DNA of 64,000 nucleotides. Source: Bradymonas sediminis (GTDB lineage Bacteria > Myxococcota_A > Bradymonadia > Bradymonadales > Bradymonadaceae). The stretch spans positions 1,464,001 through 1,528,000 of the forward strand of contig NZ_CP030032.1 of assembly GCF_003258315.1 (NCBI RefSeq). Reading direction: 5' to 3'. The notes beneath the pieces are model-generated. The model did no database searches. It was not told where the DNA came from and was given only the letters and a program-made list of their open reading frames with translations. Position numbers and translations under genes: made by a program. Positions 38,351 to 48,059 of the stretch are shown here, in pieces; the first letter of the stretch is position 1, and each line of letters starts with the position of its first letter.

Positions 38351-39469
38351 TTAGTCTTCGCGGGGGCTGTGCTGCGCGGCGAGTTTGCGGGCAAACTCGA
38401 CGGTCTCCCGCGGCACGAACTCGGCGGGCGGGGCGGGGCGCTTGGCGCTCTTTTGGCCGGACGCGTCCTTGTCGACGCCGTTGGCGCGGATCCAGCGCAC
38501 CGTGTCGCGCAGGGTCTCATTGCCCGGGCGCGGTTTGAACCCCAACTCATCTTTGGCCCGGCTTGAGTCGATATACCAAAAATACTGCGCCATCTCGACG
38601 CTGGCTGGGTCGACCTCGGGGGTCTTTCCGATAGCGCGGAGCGCCTGGTCGAAGAAGCGCGCCCCCATGGTCGCGGCCTTGCCGGGCAGCGGGATTTTGG
38701 GGGCCGAGACGCCCGAGATGTCCTCGAGGCGTTTGAAGAAATCACCCAGCGACAGGTTGGCGGCGCCGAGCAAATAGGTCTGGCCAGGCGTGCCGCGTTC
38801 CATCGCCGAGATAAACGCGTCGGCGGTGTCGCGCACGTCGACAAAAGAGATGCCCCCGGGCATGGTCGCCGGGATCTTCTTTTGCAAAAACTGCACGACA
38901 TCGCCGGTCGAGCTCTGCGTATGGTCGCCGGGGCCCAACAGCAGGGTGGGGCGCATCAAGACGATCGGCAGGTCGTGGTGCTTGATAAAATGTGCGCACA
39001 CCCGCTCGGCGTAGATTTTCGACAGATAATACGGCCAGTCGCCCACCAGCCGCTCGGCCATCGGGGAGTCGTCGGTGGCCATAAAGTCGGCGGTTTTACC
39101 CACGCCGACCGTGCCGCTGCTCGAGGCGTAGACGATCTTCTCGAGCGCGGGCCCGCCGGCCTTTAGCTGGTCGGAGAGGGCGCGAAATAGCCGGCGCGTG
39201 CCTTCGACGTGAATATCGTACATCTCGTGGGCGCGGGTGCGGTCGCGCTCGACCTTGCCGGCCAGGTGGTACACCTGGGTGACGCCGTCGATGGCGCGCG
39301 CGATATCGTCGAGGTTTTTGAGGCTCCCCTCAATAACCTCGACGCCCATCTCGGCAAGCTCAGGGTTAAAGGAGCGTGTCAGAACGCGAACGTCTTCGCC
39401 GCGCTCGATAAGCTTATCGACGAGGTGTCGGCCCAAGAAGCCGGTGCCGCCGGTGACTAAAGTGGTCAT
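38351..39469 (-). CDS. NAD-dependent epimerase/dehydratase, 3-beta-HSD-like
   Basis: 372-aa extended SDR. Cofactor motif 'VTGGTGFLGRHLVDKL' at the very N-terminus, Thr/Ser and 'YASSSGTVGVGK', active-site 'YYLSKIYAE' (Tyr-x-x-x-Lys), and a C-terminal sugar/steroid-binding part with 'GFKPRPGNETLRDTVRWI' in essence. This subgroup includes 3-beta-hydroxysteroid dehydrogenase/isomerase-like enzymes and ketone reductases. It is the last gene of the four-gene operon, 27 bp after the multidomain protein. It could reduce or oxidise an intermediate released by that protein; the substrate is inferred only. Confidence 0.88.
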   Translation of the reverse strand: MTTLVTGGTGFLGRHLVDKLIERGEDVRVLTRSFNPELAEMGVEVIEGSLKNLDDIARAIDGVTQVYHLAGKVERDRTRAHEMYDIHVEGTRRLFRALSDQLKAGGPALEKIVYASSSGTVGVGKTADFMATDDSPMAERLVGDWPYYLSKIYAERVCAHFIKHHDLPIVLMRPTLLLGPGDHTQSSTGDVVQFLQKKIPATMPGGISFVDVRDTADAFISAMERGTPGQTYLLGAANLSLGDFFKRLEDISGVSAPKIPLPGKAATMGARFFDQALRAIGKTPEVDPASVEMAQYFWYIDSSRAKDELGFKPRPGNETLRDTVRWIRANGVDKDASGQKSAKRPAPPAEFVPRETVEFARKLAAQHSPRED

Positions 39470-39496
39470 GATTTTATCTTTATATAAGAGCGCAAA

Positions 39497-42400
39497 TTAG
39501 AGGGCGAAGGCCGCCTGGAATTGAGCCAGCAATTGCGGCGCGTTGGTCTTCACCTTGCCCGACATAAACTCGTCCATCGACGGGATATAGCTCTCGGTGA
39601 CGATCTTCTTGAAGATGTCCGGCGAGGTCTTCATCACGCAGTCGGCCTTGCCGCCGGCGGGTTTGCCCTGGCCGATATGGCAGCGCTCGGCGTCCACGAC
39701 GATATTCCATTTCAGCTTATCGGCGTTGCCCAGGCTGAAATAGAAGCTGACCTCTTCGGTGAGGCGATTGGGCGCGAATTTCTCGCTCAGCTCACTAAAG
39801 AGCGGGGCCAGGTCCTCGCTGTCTTCGCCGCGGCGGGTATTGGCCGCGTCGCGCATCTTGGCGACCGCGTCATGGGCCTTCTTGCTGATATATTCGTAGC
39901 GCTCCAGGTTCGACATGTCGGCGGTTTCTTTGCGCAACTGGTGCGCCGAAATCGGCTGGCCGATATAGACCTTGAGCTTGCGGCTCGCCAGCGACGGCAA
40001 GGTGCTTCCCTTGGGGAGCGCGCGGTGCGTGCCGGCCAGATAGATCGGCAGGATGTCGACGCATTTGGTCGCCGCGAGGTAGCCCATGCCGCTGCGGAAG
40101 GGCTTGAGCTTGCCGTCCATCGAGCGGGTGCCCTCGGGGAAGATCAGCACCATCTCGCCCTGGGTCAGCGCCTCTTCGGCGTGGACCAGCGAGCCCTCCA
40201 GGCTGCCGGAGCGAGCCACCGGGATCAGGTTGGTGAAGTTGTTGAAATAGGTCTTTCGCACCGGGTTATCGAAGAAATAATCCTCGGCCGCCAGGGCCCG
40301 AATATCGCGGCCGAACTCACCCAGGGCGTATTTAATCAGGCCCATATCGAGGTGGCTGGAGTGGTTGGCGACCACGATGATATTGGGGTTATGCAGCGGC
40401 AAATTCGCGCGCCCGAAGACATCGACGTTGAAGAAGTCGTCGTAGGCCTTCTTCTGGCTGAGGTGCAGGACCTGTTTTCCGATGGTTGAGAGCGCCGGGG
40501 GCACCGGGAATTCCTCGACGGTCTTCGCGCTCTTCTTCGGCTCGCTGGCGTCCTCGTCGCTGGCCATTTTACCCGACGAGGCCAGCAGGTTTTGCAGGTC
40601 TCGGACGGTTTCAACCCCGGCCAGATTCTCCAGTGAGACCACGAAGTCGCGCTCACCAAGGATGCTCGCGAGCTCGGCGACCATCAGGCTGTCGAAGCCC
40701 AACTCGTCGGCGAAATGCGTGCCCTCGTAGATATCTTCGGCGTCGACGTCGGCCAGGTGCGCGATCTGGCTGTGCAGCCAGCTCCACTGCGAGGTCGCGT
40801 CGGTTGTGGCGCTATCCTCGGGCTGCGCGGCGACCGAATCTTTGAGCGTCTTCAGAATCTCAATGACGTCGCGACGCTTGATCTTGCGGGTCGCGGTGCG
40901 CGGCAATTCTTCGTCGGTGAAGCGGAGCACCGAGATGCGATTGGCCGCCGGCATGCGCGAGCCCTGGACTCGGATATGCTCGCGAATTCGGCCCTGAATG
41001 AGGCTGAGCTCATGGGCGTCGATCTCAAGCTCGACTTCGTTTCCGTCATCGTCGAGCTCGGTCGGGATATGCGGGCGTACCAGGCAGGCGACGCGCTCGC
41101 TCCCCTTGCTGTCGGGGAGTCCCACCACCGAGAGCTCCTCGATATCGTCACAGCCGCCGTAGAGCTCCTCGAGCTCGTCGGGGTAGACGTTTTTGCCCCC
41201 GGCGGTGACGATGACTTCCTTGGCGCGGCCGACGATGGTGAGGCGTCCACGCTCGTCGAGTTTGCCCAGGTCGCCGGTGTGCAGCCATCCGCCTTGCAGG
41301 GCTTGTTCGGTCTCTTCCTCGCGTCCCAGATACCCGCGCATGACGCTCTTTGCGCGCGCCACGACTTCGCCGATGCCGGCTTCGTTCTCATTGATGATCT
41401 TGACTTCGATGCCCTGAATCGGCTTGCCGACGCTGCCGGGGTTGAGCCCTTCGTGGGGGCCGTTGACCGTGAGCACCGGCGCGGCCTCGGTGAGGCCGTA
41501 GCCTTCGTAGAGGTTGAAGCCCATGCCGTGGAACGCCTCGAGGACATCGGAGGGCAGCGCCGCGCCGCCCGAGATCAGATAGCGAAGGCGTCCGCCGAAG
41601 GCCTTATGGACCGCGCCGAAGGCGGCGGTGCCGATATTGACGTTGAAGCGGTCGCGCAGCGTCTTGTTGATGTCGAGCAAAAAGTCGAGCGCCCAGGTGA
41701 CGGAGTCGGGGGCGTCGTCGATGCGCTGGCGCACGCGACGGTGCAGCAATTGCCACAGCGCCGGCACGCCGATAAGCGCGGTGACCGGCGTGGCGGCCAG
41801 CGCGGAGTTGATCTCCTCGCCGCTGAGCTCGTCGATATAGGTGATGGCCGCGCCGCGCGAGATGGGCAGCAAGAACCCGCAGGCGAATTCGAAGGTGTGG
41901 TGCAGCGGCAGAACGCTCAAGAAGCCGTCGCGCTCGTCGATGCTAAACGTGGAGTTGAGCCCCGAGAGCAGGTTCGTGAAGTTCTGGTGCGTCAGCATCA
42001 CGCCCTTGGGCGTGCCGGTGGTGCCCGAGGTGTAGATGAGGCTTGCCAGGGGCTGGCCCTCGGCTGCGGCGCGCGCGATCTCGCTATTCTGCGCGGTCAG
42101 CGCGTTCATCGGCTCGCCGCCGTCCGCGGCAAGCTCGAGCAGCGGGGCGCCGAAGAGTTCGTCGAAGCCGATAAAGCGGGTCGAGAAGTTCTGCGCGGCC
42201 AGCAGCTCTACGAGCTCTTCGGCCACGCGCTCGCGCACCGATTCGCTCAGGATAATGGCCTGGGCGCCGCAGGATTGCAGCAGGTTCGCCAATTGCTCGG
42301 GGGTCGAGTCGGCGTCCACCGGCACGGCGACGCCGCCGGCCTTGAGGATGCCGAAATAACTGATGCCCCACTGCGGGCGGTTCTCACTGGCGATGAGCAC

Positions 42401-44356
42401 CGGCGCGTGCTGGCCGATGCCACAATCTTTGAGATAGGCCGCGGCGCGCTCAGCGCCCAGCTTCAGGTCGCGGTAGGTATAGCGCTCGGTGATGCCGTCG
42501 CCGACATGGTGTTGCAGCGCGACCCGGCCGGCGAAATTCTCGGTGCTCGAGTCGAAGAGCTCCAGCAGGTCGTCGTAGGTATAATGCTTTGTCTTGCGCG
42601 GCTTAAATTTGTCTTCCAGCTCGGGGAACGAGTGCTTGGCGAGCCCCGGGATATGCACATCCATCCAATAGTGGCGCCAGTCGAGGTCTTCCACCGGCGA
42701 GCCGTAGCGACGCTGCTCGGAGGCCGGCAGGCCGGCGACCATCTTCGGGATGCTCTCGGTCTGGAAATGAAACGCGTTATCGTGGGTGAACGGGATCATC
42801 ATCTCGAAGACCATCTCGGTCAGGCCGGTCATGGTCTCGGCGGTCTTTAAGCCTTTGTCGACCGCCTTGATGGTCTGTCCCAGGCCGCCCAGGTGCTTGG
42901 TAGGGACCTTTTTGAGCAGGCCGCGAATCCCGCCGACCGCGCGCTTGATGCCCGGCGCGGAGCTGCGGTTAAACTGCTTGGTGCCCACCGGGACGCTGTC
43001 CATGGAGTTGAGCGCGAGCTTCTTCCAGGCCGGCATTTTCTTGGTGCCGTTGAGCTTTCGAAGCCCCAGGTTGGTCAGCTCAACGATGCGCTCAACCGAG
43101 GCCGGGTTCAGGTGGCCCGAGCCGGAGTGGTACACGTCGGCCTGGCGTTTGTGCAGCAGCGCGGCGCAGGCCGCGATCATCGAGCCAGCGCAGAAGTCCA
43201 CCGGGATCACGTCGAGGTTAATGCCGCGCTGAGTCGGCACATAGCGGTGCCCCTTCGACATCAAGAAGGCCAGCGGGGCGCTGGTGTTGACGCCTTCGTT
43301 CCAGCCCACGCTCGGGTATTCCAGGGCGCTCTCGATAATCGCGGGGCGGAAAATCGTCAGGTTATACTCGTCTTTGACGCTCGCCAAAACGCGCTCGCCC
43401 ATCGACTTGGTATAGGTATAGATATTGGGCCAGCCCCAGAAAGACGCGCGCTGGCGGCCTTCGTTCGACAGGCGCTTGGTCAGCCAGCGGTCGCGGATCT
43501 TTTCGACCTCTTTTTGGAGCTGAACCGGGTGGTTCGGGTCGATGTTTTTCTTGCGCAACACCTCGCGGGCCTGGTGGGCGAACTCGACCTGATGCTCCTG
43601 GTCGTTGGCCAATTGCTTGGCGTGCTCGATCATCGAGCGGCAGTCTTCGATCTCGCGGGCGTGGTCGTAGGGGACCTCCAACTCGTCATAATTCGGGTAG
43701 ACGGTCGGACCGGGCATGATCTCGGGGATTTTGCCGCTTCGATTGCCCGCCACAAAGCAGGTCGACACGTGCATATAGGAGGCTTTGCGCCCGCCGAGGT
43801 CCAGGAAGTTGAGCATATTGAATTGGCTCAACGTGTTGATGCGCAGCGCGCTCTCCAGGTTCGGGTTGAAGTTGGTCAACCCGGCCGAGTTCACGAACAC
43901 GTCGAGGTTCGCCGACAGCTCGCGCGCCACGGGCTCGCCAAGTCCCAGGAATTCCTCGGTAATATCGCCGGCCAGCGGGGTGCATTTCTCGCTCATGAAG
44001 TCGATATAGCCGTCTTCATAGATCTCGCGCAGCGGGTCCATCACCGAGTTGTTGACGACCTGCTGGAAGAAGCGCTCCTCGGCGCTCATGGTCTTGCGCG
44101 CGCGGATCAGCACATAGACCTGGTCGATATCCGGGTGGTAGCGCAAAAGCATCGACAGGAACGCCTTGCCCAGAAAGCCGGTGACGCCGCTGAGCAGGAT
44201 CTTTCGCCCCGAGAGCGTCTCGGAGACCGACCACTCGACGTCGGTCGGGGCCGTCGCGATGCTCGCGGCGGCTTGTCCGTTGAGGTCTTGTCCGTTGAGA
44301 ATCTGTCCGTTGGACATGGAGTGATTCACATGCTGGGTATCTTGCTCGTTTGACAT
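39497..44356 (-). CDS. Five-domain lipid megaenzyme: acyl reductase-AMP ligase-ACP-acyltransferase-SCP2 (ElbD-like)
   Basis: About 1619 aa; ATG 44356 with AGGAAG upstream. Domains: (1) fatty acyl-CoA/thioester reductase about 50-570 ('LLSGVTGFLGK', 'YTYTKSMGE'); (2) acyl-activating AMP ligase about 600-1170 ('YTSGTTGTPKG', 'GYGLTE', 'GWLHTGD'); (3) acyl carrier about 1190-1262 ('LGFDSLM', phosphopantetheine Ser); (4) PlsC acyltransferase about 1300-1475 ('NHSSHLD', 'FPEGTR'); (5) SCP2-like lipid-binding domain about 1525-1619. All active-site motifs are intact. The protein could activate a fatty acid, load it on the carrier, reduce it, and transfer another acyl group. The order resembles the multifunctional ElbD enzyme for ether lipids in myxobacteria, recalled from memory. 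The N-terminus has an 'NGQxLNGQ' repeat. Confidence 0.93.
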   Translation of the reverse strand: MSNEQDTQHVNHSMSNGQILNGQDLNGQAAASIATAPTDVEWSVSETLSGRKILLSGVTGFLGKAFLSMLLRYHPDIDQVYVLIRARKTMSAEERFFQQVVNNSVMDPLREIYEDGYIDFMSEKCTPLAGDITEEFLGLGEPVARELSANLDVFVNSAGLTNFNPNLESALRINTLSQFNMLNFLDLGGRKASYMHVSTCFVAGNRSGKIPEIMPGPTVYPNYDELEVPYDHAREIEDCRSMIEHAKQLANDQEHQVEFAHQAREVLRKKNIDPNHPVQLQKEVEKIRDRWLTKRLSNEGRQRASFWGWPNIYTYTKSMGERVLASVKDEYNLTIFRPAIIESALEYPSVGWNEGVNTSAPLAFLMSKGHRYVPTQRGINLDVIPVDFCAGSMIAACAALLHKRQADVYHSGSGHLNPASVERIVELTNLGLRKLNGTKKMPAWKKLALNSMDSVPVGTKQFNRSSAPGIKRAVGGIRGLLKKVPTKHLGGLGQTIKAVDKGLKTAETMTGLTEMVFEMMIPFTHDNAFHFQTESIPKMVAGLPASEQRRYGSPVEDLDWRHYWMDVHIPGLAKHSFPELEDKFKPRKTKHYTYDDLLELFDSSTENFAGRVALQHHVGDGITERYTYRDLKLGAERAAAYLKDCGIGQHAPVLIASENRPQWGISYFGILKAGGVAVPVDADSTPEQLANLLQSCGAQAIILSESVRERVAEELVELLAAQNFSTRFIGFDELFGAPLLELAADGGEPMNALTAQNSEIARAAAEGQPLASLIYTSGTTGTPKGVMLTHQNFTNLLSGLNSTFSIDERDGFLSVLPLHHTFEFACGFLLPISRGAAITYIDELSGEEINSALAATPVTALIGVPALWQLLHRRVRQRIDDAPDSVTWALDFLLDINKTLRDRFNVNIGTAAFGAVHKAFGGRLRYLISGGAALPSDVLEAFHGMGFNLYEGYGLTEAAPVLTVNGPHEGLNPGSVGKPIQGIEVKIINENEAGIGEVVARAKSVMRGYLGREEETEQALQGGWLHTGDLGKLDERGRLTIVGRAKEVIVTAGGKNVYPDELEELYGGCDDIEELSVVGLPDSKGSERVACLVRPHIPTELDDDGNEVELEIDAHELSLIQGRIREHIRVQGSRMPAANRISVLRFTDEELPRTATRKIKRRDVIEILKTLKDSVAAQPEDSATTDATSQWSWLHSQIAHLADVDAEDIYEGTHFADELGFDSLMVAELASILGERDFVVSLENLAGVETVRDLQNLLASSGKMASDEDASEPKKSAKTVEEFPVPPALSTIGKQVLHLSQKKAYDDFFNVDVFGRANLPLHNPNIIVVANHSSHLDMGLIKYALGEFGRDIRALAAEDYFFDNPVRKTYFNNFTNLIPVARSGSLEGSLVHAEEALTQGEMVLIFPEGTRSMDGKLKPFRSGMGYLAATKCVDILPIYLAGTHRALPKGSTLPSLASRKLKVYIGQPISAHQLRKETADMSNLERYEYISKKAHDAVAKMRDAANTRRGEDSEDLAPLFSELSEKFAPNRLTEEVSFYFSLGNADKLKWNIVVDAERCHIGQGKPAGGKADCVMKTSPDIFKKIVTESYIPSMDEFMSGKVKTNAPQLLAQFQAAFAL

Positions 44357-44395
44357 CACGTCTTCCTGGCGTTGAGCCGCTGGGCTCGGGTCTGT

Positions 44396-44417
44396 CCCGC
44401 GAGGCAATTCTCGCGGG
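44396..44417 (-). other. Intercistronic hairpin in the lipid operon
   Basis: CCCGCGAG (44396-44403) pairs with CTCGCGGG (44410-44417) between the LarA-like gene and the megaenzyme gene. No T tract follows, so it may protect mRNA or adjust the ratio of products rather than terminate. Confidence 0.45.
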
Positions 44418-44450
44418 TGCTTCTGGGGTGTCGCTAAAATTATCGACTGC

Positions 44451-46037
44451 TTATTTTACGTCGGCGATCACAAAGGGCGGGTGGTTAACCAGCGTGATAT
44501 CCATATCCCGGCCGTGCGTGTCGCGGGCCATCTCGAGCGCCTCGTCCATCGTCTCGGCGCGCTCCCAGCCCAGGCGCTCCGGCACATGCTCGTTCTCGGC
44601 GCCCACGACGATGACACGTCCCACGTGATTTTGGCCGTTCTCGCACCAATACCACATATAGAAGGGGTGCACGCCGTGGTAGGCGTTGCCGTTTCGGAAC
44701 ATCTCGATATAGCTGGGGTTATTGGCGAATTCCTTCTCGTATTTGTGCGCGAGCTTGTGCGAATCGCGGGTCTCGGGCAGGCAACGGTTGAAGAATTCGA
44801 TATAGCTGGGGTGATGGTCCGGGTCGAACTCGTCGTAGCAGGGATGGGTCACGATGAGCGTGCCGCCCTTTTTGACCAGCGGTTTTCCGCGGTACATATT
44901 GTGGAAATACCCCAGCGCCATGATGCGGACGAGCAGGGGGTTGAGGATCGAGTTGACGTTATACGGGCTCTCAAACGGGATGCCGTAGACGACGACGTCG
45001 GATTGCCCCTCGACCTCGACCAGGTGCTGCTGCCAGCACTTCTCCAGGGTCTTCTCGTGCACCGCTTCGGTCTCGCCGGCGAACACGCCGAGCAGGCCGT
45101 AGGGGGCGGGGACCTTGTGGAAGAGGGCGCGCTTGGCAGCGCGCGGCGCCTTGCTCAGCGCCCATTTGAAGGTGTTGAATTTCAGGTGGTCCGCGCTGGA
45201 CCAGTTGTCTTCGTTGCGCGCCAAAAAGTCGAGGTTCTCGTCGTACATCCGGTTATTGAGCGCCGTCTCGATATGGAAGACGTTCAGGTGCTCGTTGACC
45301 AGCATGCCCATGCGGGTGTTGCTGTCGTAGAGCGCCGAGTTCTCCGGGTCCATATAGGAGTCGGATTTGGCGATGGTCTCGGGGTTATGGTGATGCTGGA
45401 TCGACTGGTAGCCGGCCATGCCGGTGCCGATCGATTTATAGCCGCCGTTCATCGGCACGTAGTTCACGTTGACGTAGATGAGCAGGTCGCTCTCGGCCGC
45501 CGGGCGGTAGACCTGGACGTCCTCGCCCTGGGAGGTCTTTCCCAGGTGCACCATATTCTCGGTGTCCTCGGCGTCCATATTGTCCAGGCGGTCGGGGTAA
45601 TATTTGTTGAAGACCTTGGGGCCCACCGAGCGCTTGATCTCCTCGGGCGTCATGCGCCGGTGCAGCGCCAGCGCCATGAACATCTGGATGTCCTCGACGC
45701 CGTGGTCCTCCAGGATCTCGGTGACGATTTCGAGCACCTCCTGGCGGATATCCGGGGTCTTCATCGGCGGCAGCGGCACGCTGATGTCGTCGATGGCGAT
45801 GGCGACCTTCATGCCCGGCTTAAGCTGCGCGTACAGCGGCTTGGCGCCGCCCTCGGGGTGGTTGAGCGCGTAGCGAATCGCCGCCCCGCGGTTCTTGATC
45901 TCCTTCATCGGCGGGTTCGGGTATAGCGCGCGGGTGCCTGCCGGGAATTTATGGGTGATGAAGTCTTCGCCATAGTGAAGATAGCGGGGGGCGGAATCTT
46001 CGGTGAGATAGACGACGGTTTTGGGATTCTCAGCCAT
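44451..46037 (-). CDS. LarA/DUF2088-like protein
   Basis: About 528 aa from ATG 46037; a TTG-started longer frame is less likely. 'KPGMKVAIAIDDISVPLPPM' in essence and 'ALALHRRMTPEEIKRSVG' match the N-terminal domain of the nickel-pincer lactate racemase family (LarA: 'DxTRPxP', 'GxHRxxT'). Divergence is marked: the phospho-anchor 'DDTRP'-like segment reads 'DDISVPLP', and the histidine motif is 'LHRRM'. The C-terminal half has many aromatic and His residues ('QHHHNPE', 'HPCYDEFDPDHHPSYIEFF'), which could bind metal. No lar maturation genes are nearby, so racemase activity is doubtful. It is cotranscribed with the megaenzyme and probably acts in lipid metabolism. Confidence 0.72.
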   Translation of the reverse strand: MAENPKTVVYLTEDSAPRYLHYGEDFITHKFPAGTRALYPNPPMKEIKNRGAAIRYALNHPEGGAKPLYAQLKPGMKVAIAIDDISVPLPPMKTPDIRQEVLEIVTEILEDHGVEDIQMFMALALHRRMTPEEIKRSVGPKVFNKYYPDRLDNMDAEDTENMVHLGKTSQGEDVQVYRPAAESDLLIYVNVNYVPMNGGYKSIGTGMAGYQSIQHHHNPETIAKSDSYMDPENSALYDSNTRMGMLVNEHLNVFHIETALNNRMYDENLDFLARNEDNWSSADHLKFNTFKWALSKAPRAAKRALFHKVPAPYGLLGVFAGETEAVHEKTLEKCWQQHLVEVEGQSDVVVYGIPFESPYNVNSILNPLLVRIMALGYFHNMYRGKPLVKKGGTLIVTHPCYDEFDPDHHPSYIEFFNRCLPETRDSHKLAHKYEKEFANNPSYIEMFRNGNAYHGVHPFYMWYWCENGQNHVGRVIVVGAENEHVPERLGWERAETMDEALEMARDTHGRDMDITLVNHPPFVIADVK

Positions 46038-46166
46038 AATATCGAACTCGGATAATTCAGTGTTCCGACGGATGCGCGCGTGTATGGGCGCCTTCAATCG
46101 GGTGAAAAAGATGCGGAAAAGCCGACCTGAAACTCAGGTCGACTGAAATCGTATCGCAGATAAAAA

Positions 46167-46874
46167 CTATTTTAGATTTAAGATCGGCCAATCGTAGGCG
46201 CGCGCGTTGGTGCGCATGCGAAAGTCCGGGTTGACCGCGCAGGGGTGCCCGACGACCGAGAGCAGCGGGATGTCGGAGCCGCTGTCGGCATAGGCAAAGG
46301 AGCCGTCCAAATCCAGCCCGTGTTTCTCGCCGTATTGGCGCACCCACAGCGCCTTCGACGCGCCGGCGAGCACCGGCTTGAGCAGGCGCCCGGTCGCGAT
46401 GCCGTCCTTCATCTCGAGGCGGTTTGCCACGAAGTCATCCACGCCCAAAAAGTCCGCCAGCGGGGCGGTGATGACGTCAATCGCCCCGGTGATCAGCACC
46501 TGCCGGTGCCCCTGCTCCTTGGACTTGGCCACGAGCGAGCGCGCACCCTCAAAGATATTGGGGCGAATGACATTCTCAAAGATCTCTTCGCCCAGAACGA
46601 CGAGACGATCTTCGGAGAACCCGGCGTAATTCTTATAAAAATGCACGTTAAAGAGGCGTCGGTCGAATTTGTCGGCCAGCCAATACGCCGGCAAGCTCGC
46701 CAAAAGCCCCGCCGTCTTGCTCAACTTCTTGCTCATCATCGGCGAGTTCATCGCGTAATACGCGTAGGCGTGCACGACATTGGTCGAAATCAGCGTGCCG
46801 TCGACGTCGTAAAACGCGGCGGTCGGCCTCTTTGGCTTCTTATGTTTATGGGACTCTTCGGCTGCTGCACTCAT
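46167..46874 (-). CDS. HAD-IB family phosphatase
   Basis: 235 aa from ATG 46874 with GGAG upstream. The N-terminal motif 'AAFYDVDGTLI' gives the nucleophile and acid Asp (DxD), 'VLITGAIDV' is motif II (Thr), and 'YADSGSDIPLLSVVGHPCAVNPD' in essence is motif IV, as in SerB/CicA-type HAD-IB enzymes. Members often accompany PlsC acyltransferases and dephosphorylate lipid or polyol phosphates. It is the first gene of the operon, 129 bp before the LarA-like gene, with a likely promoter upstream. The hydrolysis of a phospholipid intermediate is inferred from context. Confidence 0.88.
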   Translation of the reverse strand: MSAAAEESHKHKKPKRPTAAFYDVDGTLISTNVVHAYAYYAMNSPMMSKKLSKTAGLLASLPAYWLADKFDRRLFNVHFYKNYAGFSEDRLVVLGEEIFENVIRPNIFEGARSLVAKSKEQGHRQVLITGAIDVITAPLADFLGVDDFVANRLEMKDGIATGRLLKPVLAGASKALWVRQYGEKHGLDLDGSFAYADSGSDIPLLSVVGHPCAVNPDFRMRTNARAYDWPILNLK

Positions 46875-47414: not shown

Positions 47415-48059
47415 ATGGATGGCGACGTGTTTCGAGGGTGGTATAGCCGTGGGTATTTGCCGCATTTTGATAGTGACTCCGTGCCGCAAATGGTGACGTA
47501 TCGGCTGGCGGATTCGCTGCCTCATTCGGTGGTGCGGCGTCTTCTCAATGAGACAACGCAAGGCGACCCGGAGCGTCGGGAGCGCTATGAAGCGTTGCTT
47601 GACGGTGGGTACGGGGCGTGTGTGTTGCGACAGCCTGAGAACGCTCAAATCGTTATCGACGCTTGGGAATTCTATGACGGCTCGCGCTATCGACTCTTGG
47701 ATTGGTGCGTTATGCCCAATCACGTTCATATTACCTATGAGCGACCCACGGTTGGCTTATCAACCCTTGTCAAAGCGTGGAAGACCTATACGTCGAAGCA
47801 GATCAAAACGCGCTTGGGAACTCACGGGGATGGGGAGGCGTTGTGGCAGGCGGGCTTTTTTGACCGCTTTGCCCGCGATGCGCGGCATCTCTTTCATATG
47901 CAATGCTATATTTGGCTGAATCCAGTTCGGGCTGGCTTGGTCGATGACCCTTTCGAATGGCCATATTCGAGTATTCATAACCATGCGCGCTTTCGGCCGT
48001 CGATTATGCGTTGGTGGGAGCAGCAAAAAGAGCGGTTTTGGGATGGGGGCGGTTATTGA
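47415..48059 (+). CDS. REP-associated tyrosine transposase (RAYT, Y1 family)
   Basis: 214 aa. Domesticated relative of IS200/IS605 transposases thought to process and spread REP palindromes. The HUH metal motif is 'MPNHVHI' (about residue 104); the catalytic Tyr lies in 'CYIWLNPVRAGLV' (about residue 170). 'YRLADSLPHSVV' near the N-terminus also fits the family. RBS GGGGAA upstream of ATG 47415. Three REP-like units lie on its left and two on its right, the expected arrangement for a RAYT and its cognate repeats. The gene is intact, with no inverted-repeat IS ends of its own, so it is not a standard IS. Confidence 0.92.
   Translation: MDGDVFRGWYSRGYLPHFDSDSVPQMVTYRLADSLPHSVVRRLLNETTQGDPERRERYEALLDGGYGACVLRQPENAQIVIDAWEFYDGSRYRLLDWCVMPNHVHITYERPTVGLSTLVKAWKTYTSKQIKTRLGTHGDGEALWQAGFFDRFARDARHLFHMQCYIWLNPVRAGLVDDPFEWPYSSIHNHARFRPSIMRWWEQQKERFWDGGGY

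Follow-up and report, generated by a model that had tools for sequence, protein, structure and literature searches.

Four genes lie on the minus strand between positions 38351 and 46874 of a 64-kb stretch of the Bradymonas sediminis genome; "the window" means this whole stretch. They encode a HAD-IB phosphatase, a LarA-like protein, a multidomain protein of 1619 residues and an NAD-dependent short-chain dehydrogenase/reductase (SDR) (Table 1). The original prediction for this DNA had placed four same-strand genes here and named the partners of the large protein as a HAD-IB phosphatase, a divergent LarA protein and a 3-beta-HSD-like dehydrogenase. Pfam and NCBIfam matches agree with these assignments. 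It had also noted a likeness to ElbD and the elb ether-lipid locus of myxobacteria, which is borne out by gene order and domains: the order is that of elbB-elbC-elbD-elbE of Myxococcus xanthus, all on one strand. Judged by its sequence, the locus is almost certainly an elbBCDE-type ether-lipid operon.

Table 1. Features of the elb-type locus and its flank (positions in the window)
Feature	Position	Strand	Basis or remark
ElbE-like extended SDR, 372 residues	38351..39469	-	Pfam Epimerase 6.6e-35 and 3Beta_HSD
ElbD-like five-domain protein, 1619 residues	39497..44356	-	Pfam; homologues in 81/284 phylum genomes, E ≤ 1e-140
ElbD domain 5, SCP2-type lipid-binding, about residues 1510-1619	39500..39829	-	weak Pfam SCP2; Foldseek SCP2 structures
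ElbD domain 4, PlsC-type acyltransferase, residues 1312-1440	40037..40423	-	Pfam Acyltransferase 4.3e-21; NHSSHLD, FPEGTRS
ElbD domain 3, carrier protein, residues 1193-1254	40595..40780	-	Pfam PP-binding 2e-7; GFDSL
ElbD domain 2, AMP-forming acyl ligase, residues 603-1158	40883..42550	-	Pfam AMP-binding 3.6e-77, weak AMP-binding_C; YTSGTTGTPKG
ElbD domain 1, fatty acyl reductase (NAD_binding_4), residues 55-392	43181..44194	-	Pfam 8.8e-50; GVTGFLG, YTYTK
ElbC, LarA-like nickel-pincer-cofactor-type protein, 528 residues	44451..46037	-	LarAH14/15/16 family, NF052592
Terminator-like hairpin, elbB/elbC gap	46123..46141	-	CGACCTGA-GTT-TCAGGTCG, then GCTTTT; seen in the sequence
ElbB-like HAD-IB phosphatase, 235 residues	46167..46874	-	Pfam HAD 8.7e-34; TIGR01490 131.9 bits (cut-off 98.3); DVDGT and ADSGSD motifs
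IS200-like (Y1) transposase-family gene	47415..48059	+	divergent from the operon

The elb genes of M. xanthus comprise elbA (an SDR), elbB (HAD), elbC (of unknown function), elbD (fatty acyl reductase, acyl ligase, acyl carrier protein and acyltransferase, or FAR-ACS-ACP-AT) and elbE (an SDR), and loss of elbD strongly reduces the ether lipids, as stated in PMC9131029, where the work of Lorenzen et al. 2014 is described. The elbA gene is reported not to be needed for ether lipids, which means that it is not essential to membership in this operon. An elbA-type SDR is not found upstream of elbB in the window; the IS200-like gene occupies that side, at the position which elbA has in Myxococcus. 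The ElbE-like SDR gene comes after elbD in most relatives, and its product scores below the cut-offs of the HpnA, SdmB and OleD models.

A second difference from the M. xanthus locus is the hairpin between elbB and elbC. It was spotted by direct reading and not picked up by a scan for consensus-type terminators. The original prediction had used the term operon; with a hairpin and four T's in this gap, a single shared transcript is not assured, and elbB to elbE may be split over more than one.

The large protein had been predicted to join reductase, ligase, carrier, acyltransferase and SCP2 domains in one polypeptide with intact motifs. Pfam, motif and fold checks agree: the active-site motifs in Table 1 are all intact, the first four domains follow the FAR-ACS-ACP-AT order of M. 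xanthus ElbD, and a domain search finds both the acyltransferase and the SCP2 domain. The latter is a borderline case for profile methods. By hmmscan it reaches an E-value of 0.0027 and 18.5 bits, below the Pfam cut-off of 21.3; by whole-genome profile search it reaches 23.5 bits, above that cut-off. It is, however, matched in 10 of 24 relatives at E ≤ 0.01, and the last 340 residues of the protein, modelled with AlphaFold (mean pLDDT 90.8), retrieve the SCP2 structures 1ikt, 1c44, 8af2 and others in Foldseek, next to PlsC 5kym. On these two grounds the domain is accepted as real by its modelled fold. ElbD of Myxococcus and Acidobacteria stops near query residue 1470-1508, i.e., without SCP2 (about 1474 residues in Myxococcus-type loci versus 1619 here), while in most other Myxococcota families it reaches the end of the query, SCP2 region included. 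As these alignments read, the SCP2 fusion is a lineage variant outside the core of ElbD, widespread in the phylum; the operon is of a known kind, and its ElbD is an extended five-domain variant.

How firmly the genes belong together was surveyed in 284 genomes of the phylum, where a strong match to the LarAH14/15/16 model was counted as ElbC and a match at E ≤ 1e-140 as ElbD. ElbC occurs in 82 of them, ElbD in 81 and both in 79 (Fisher p 6e-64). Most of the five exceptions are drafts, 73-86 percent complete, and in one of the five (G069) a contig end truncates ElbD to a fragment. The original prediction had made conservation of the neighbours beside the megaenzyme a test, and they are strongly conserved: 39 of 40 phylum loci place the HAD gene beside the LarA-like gene, and ElbD is within the fetched stretch of 32 of these 40, with order and strand unchanged. 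Eight loci lack a neighbouring elbD but carry it at another place in the respective genome. This unlinking of elbD from elbBC is seen in several families, and the coupling of ElbC to ElbD spans many families and survives it. In two loci from one such family (L061:9460-12196 and L065:9616-11166), a DUF1800 gene lies directly 3' of elbC, accompanied in L061 by a DUF1501 gene.

The order HAD-LarA-ElbD-SDR also recurs in Myxococcus dinghuensis and Pyxidicoccus fallax (L085 and L119, both with an elbA-type SDR, which in M. dinghuensis lies upstream), in several Corallococcus and in many Acidobacteria contigs, which identifies the LarA-like gene as elbC. Two Acidobacteria loci, L140 (9207-15206) and L144 (3517-9685), encode HAD, LarA, a stand-alone reductase at the position of ElbD, and SDR; ligase, carrier and acyltransferase domains were not found in the stretches fetched. 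By the gene content of these two, HAD, LarA, reductase and SDR form the smallest conserved set. In both, the SDR is followed by one more conserved gene. That of L140 encodes a diacylglycerol kinase, which points to a glycerolipid product. This also bears on the idea that the operon yields fatty alcohols or wax esters instead of ether lipids. Release of an alcohol by reductase, acyl ligase and carrier is conceivable, yet the acyltransferase is of the PlsC/glycerophosphate type by sequence and fold and not a wax synthase, a HAD-IB phosphatase is rarely missing, and M. xanthus elbD mutants lose ether lipids (PMC9131029); taken with the kinase, this makes the idea quite improbable. By analogy with M. 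xanthus genetics, ether lipids are the likely product in B. sediminis.

The LarA-like subunit had been considered the least understood part and possibly a new enzyme. The former holds; the latter was incomplete, since the protein belongs to an already recognised NCBIfam family and sits at the elbC position. ElbC, most likely starting with the ATG at 46037, scores 846.8 bits against NF052592 (LarAH14/15/16; curated cut-off 740). All 117 homologues compared keep its D85, H127, K202 and H218, which align with D72, H108, K184 and H200 of LarA; by this equivalence they would be the ribose Asp, the catalytic His, the cofactor lysine and a nickel ligand. The second catalytic histidine (LarA His174) is missing: there is no His at ElbC 186-200 in any of the 117, and the loop that bears it in LarA is about four residues shorter. 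At the position of LarA Arg75, which binds the cofactor phosphate and the substrate carboxylate, all 117 have Leu, Val or Met. An invariant N367-P368 is aligned with LarA Lys298, in a C-terminal part where the sequence alignment is weak.

The solved structure closest to the predicted model of ElbC (mean pLDDT 91.1) is 9q3k, a Streptococcus LarA of the single-histidine type (Z 39.5, root-mean-square deviation 2.2 Å over 453 residues). With these single-histidine enzymes (LarA_Sp 9q3k, LarA_Bw 9q3j; PMC12611868), its nearest solved relatives by fold, ElbC shares the one catalytic His, the cofactor Lys, the nickel-binding His, the ribose Asp and the lack of the second catalytic His. It differs in a His/Asn loop shortened by about four residues, which removes the Asn itself, in having Leu, Val or Met for their cofactor-phosphate Lys/Arg, and in its gene context, which is lipid and not sugar. 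A nearly invariant aromatic run (YMWYW region) replaces the SMISC of the sugar-associated enzymes and would suit a greasy substrate. With canonical LarA racemases ElbC has in common the fold, the cofactor lysine, the nickel histidine, the His108 equivalent and the supply by LarBCE; lost are the second catalytic histidine and the carboxylate-binding arginine.

Because of these two losses, ElbC, to judge from its residues, is not an ordinary 2-hydroxy-acid racemase. That it is one, nickel-dependent and merely sharing the operon, might be read from the family name in NCBIfam (hydroxyacid isomerase) and from the LarA fold. The invariable loss of both residues, the near-perfect co-inheritance with ElbD and the inactivity of Frankia LarAH14 on seven 2-hydroxy acids (PMC7583248) make this a very improbable proposition. 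LarAH groups 14 and 15 lack the second catalytic histidine, and such proteins might catalyse another hydride-mediated reaction (PMC12611868, PMC7583248).

Could ElbC have lost the cofactor altogether and act as a subunit with a structural or lipid-binding role? It indeed lacks several residues that LarA uses for substrate and catalysis, and relatives of group 16 have been judged not to bind the cofactor (PMC7583248). However, all four residues of the cofactor and nickel site are invariant in ElbC and, unlike in that group 16, retained in the members of the LarAH14/15/16 model examined here. Moreover, the cofactor pathway is kept in a genome where no other LarA-family protein was found: a genome search revealed adjacent LarE and LarB genes at 4.256 Mb and a LarC gene at 4.440 Mb. 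The absence of Lar maturation genes that the original prediction had stressed is thus true of the window only; they were not seen because they are located far from it. ElbC is the sole Lar_N protein found in its genome, which leaves the nickel-pincer cofactor with no other visible client. Within the phylum, 78 of the 82 ElbC-positive genomes encode LarC, compared with 130 of the 202 others (p 8e-9, shared ancestry not being modelled). Loss of the cofactor accordingly appears improbable, and its use by ElbC, as far as residues and gene content tell, probable. The 130 Myxococcota genomes that have LarC without a strong ElbC-type match are a matter of their own; many of them have no LarA match to the LarAH14/15/16 model at all.

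We thus favour, with a probability of about 0.7, an explanation in which the locus is an elbBCDE ether-lipid operon and ElbC acts on one of the lipid intermediates of this pathway by nickel-pincer hydride transfer. In the order that we infer, the ligase of ElbD would activate a fatty acid and load it onto the carrier domain, the PlsC-type domain would acylate glycerol phosphate or dihydroxyacetone phosphate (DHAP), and the reductase domain would produce the fatty alcohol, while the SCP2 domain may hold or hand on the greasy intermediate. ElbE would perform a keto/hydroxy redox step on the glycerolipid and ElbB remove the phosphate. ElbC, charged with the nickel-pincer nucleotide by LarB, LarC and LarE from elsewhere in the genome, would take and return a hydride at a carbinol of its substrate; that this substrate is one of the lipid or glycerolipid intermediates in the elb pathway is somewhat more than an even bet.

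Which enzyme makes the ether bond? The peroxisomal pathway of animals uses FAR1, GNPAT, AGPS, which forms the ether bond, and an alkyl-DHAP reductase, as summarised in PMC9131029. Mapped on this scheme, the ElbD reductase matches FAR1, the ElbD acyltransferase GNPAT/AGPAT, ElbE the alkyl-DHAP reductase and ElbB a phosphatase. A counterpart of AGPS is absent from the elb operon, and elbC is the one gene still without a partner in the scheme. The same paper states that the elbD-dependent ether lipids of M. xanthus are largely independent of its AGPS homologue, which contributes little, and calls the formation of the ether bond mainly without AGPS in myxobacteria unexplained. ElbC might, though we consider it unlikely, be a nickel-pincer O-alkyl synthase that does the job of the FAD enzyme AGPS. 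It would then abstract the hydride at the glycerol C2 carbinol in an acyl-glycerol phosphate. The ketone formed for a moment would allow the acyl group at C1 to be exchanged for a fatty alcohol, whereupon the hydride would be returned.

The competing view has an AGPS-family enzyme encoded elsewhere form the ether bond; the operon would provide no more than the fatty alcohol and the steps of acylation, redox and dephosphorylation, and ElbC would have an unrelated side job. The B. sediminis genome does encode an AGPS-family protein (L160) with a conserved HHHGVG, whose best PDB match is AGPS 2uuu (2e-62) and whose gene is near one of the diacylglycerol kinase family. Yet this protein aligns to mammalian AGPS with 163 bits only, as compared to 542 bits for a canonical myxococcotal AGPS, and its gene has FAD-binding and Fe-S (GlcE/GlcF-like) genes as neighbours. 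Canonical AGPS occurs in 1 of 82 ElbC genomes versus 29 of 202 others (p 4e-4), and 35 of the 82 lack any AGPS-family match at E ≤ 1e-35. Together with the small contribution of the M. xanthus homologue (see above), this renders an AGPS elsewhere rather unlikely as the ether-forming enzyme. The near absence of canonical AGPS from ElbC genomes supports elb as an alternative route and ElbC as a candidate for its ether-forming step. If all AGPS-family proteins are counted, there is no association with ElbC (47 of 82 versus 123 of 202, p 0.6), since the family consists of several subtypes and only the canonical one is anti-associated. At least three AGPS subtypes are seen in the phylum (L172, L173, L174, L176, L164, L160); they differ after HHHGVG, a motif that L164 lacks. 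The B. sediminis cluster at about 4,565,860-4,571,100 (L161), with a divergent AGPS-family protein of 577 residues, FAD-binding and Fe-S genes and a diacylglycerol-kinase-family gene, is possibly a second, unrelated glycerolipid redox operon.

The original prediction had called the gene set a self-contained pathway. The term overreaches: a nickel-loaded ElbC would need LarBCE, the operon contains no known ether-bond enzyme, and elbD is sometimes unlinked.

Several points weigh against the explanation favoured here. We know of no biochemistry on ElbC or on the individual domains of ElbD. The association counts for ElbC/ElbD, LarC and AGPS ignore shared ancestry. An ether-forming ElbC has to cope with the divergent AGPS-family protein of its own genome and with the lack of association of the wider AGPS family. 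In M. xanthus, according to the accessible part of PMC9131029, only elbD and possibly elbE are clearly implicated; the effect of elbB was put down to polarity, and an elbC mutant is not described there. Pontiella has an elbD homologue, yet ether lipids were not detected (PMC11868695). Finally, Desguin et al. left out group 16, which falls under the same NCBIfam model as ElbC, for want of cofactor residues (PMC7583248).

No paper was found that links elbC or ether lipids to lactate racemase, the nickel-pincer cofactor or DUF2088, most subscription papers, including Lorenzen 2014, being outside the coverage. A nickel-pincer step by ElbC in ether-lipid synthesis would thus appear to be new. Nor did these papers identify ElbC as a conserved single-histidine LarA homologue that is almost always paired with ElbD, in a genome that has the cofactor pathway. 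The function of LarAH groups 14 and 15 was left open in the LarA literature (PMC7583248, PMC12611868). Two open questions are thereby joined: the elb gene that lacked an explanation belongs to the nickel-pincer homologues that lacked one too, and the ether-bond step of myxobacteria has a concrete suspect. If ElbC indeed formed the ether bond, it would supply the missing step of the elb pathway and be, to our knowledge, the first nickel-pincer enzyme in lipid synthesis and the first that is not an isomerase. In genomes, elbC and elbD make a marker pair for the potential to produce ether lipids, which bears on the sources of the bacterial tetraethers that serve as climate proxies.

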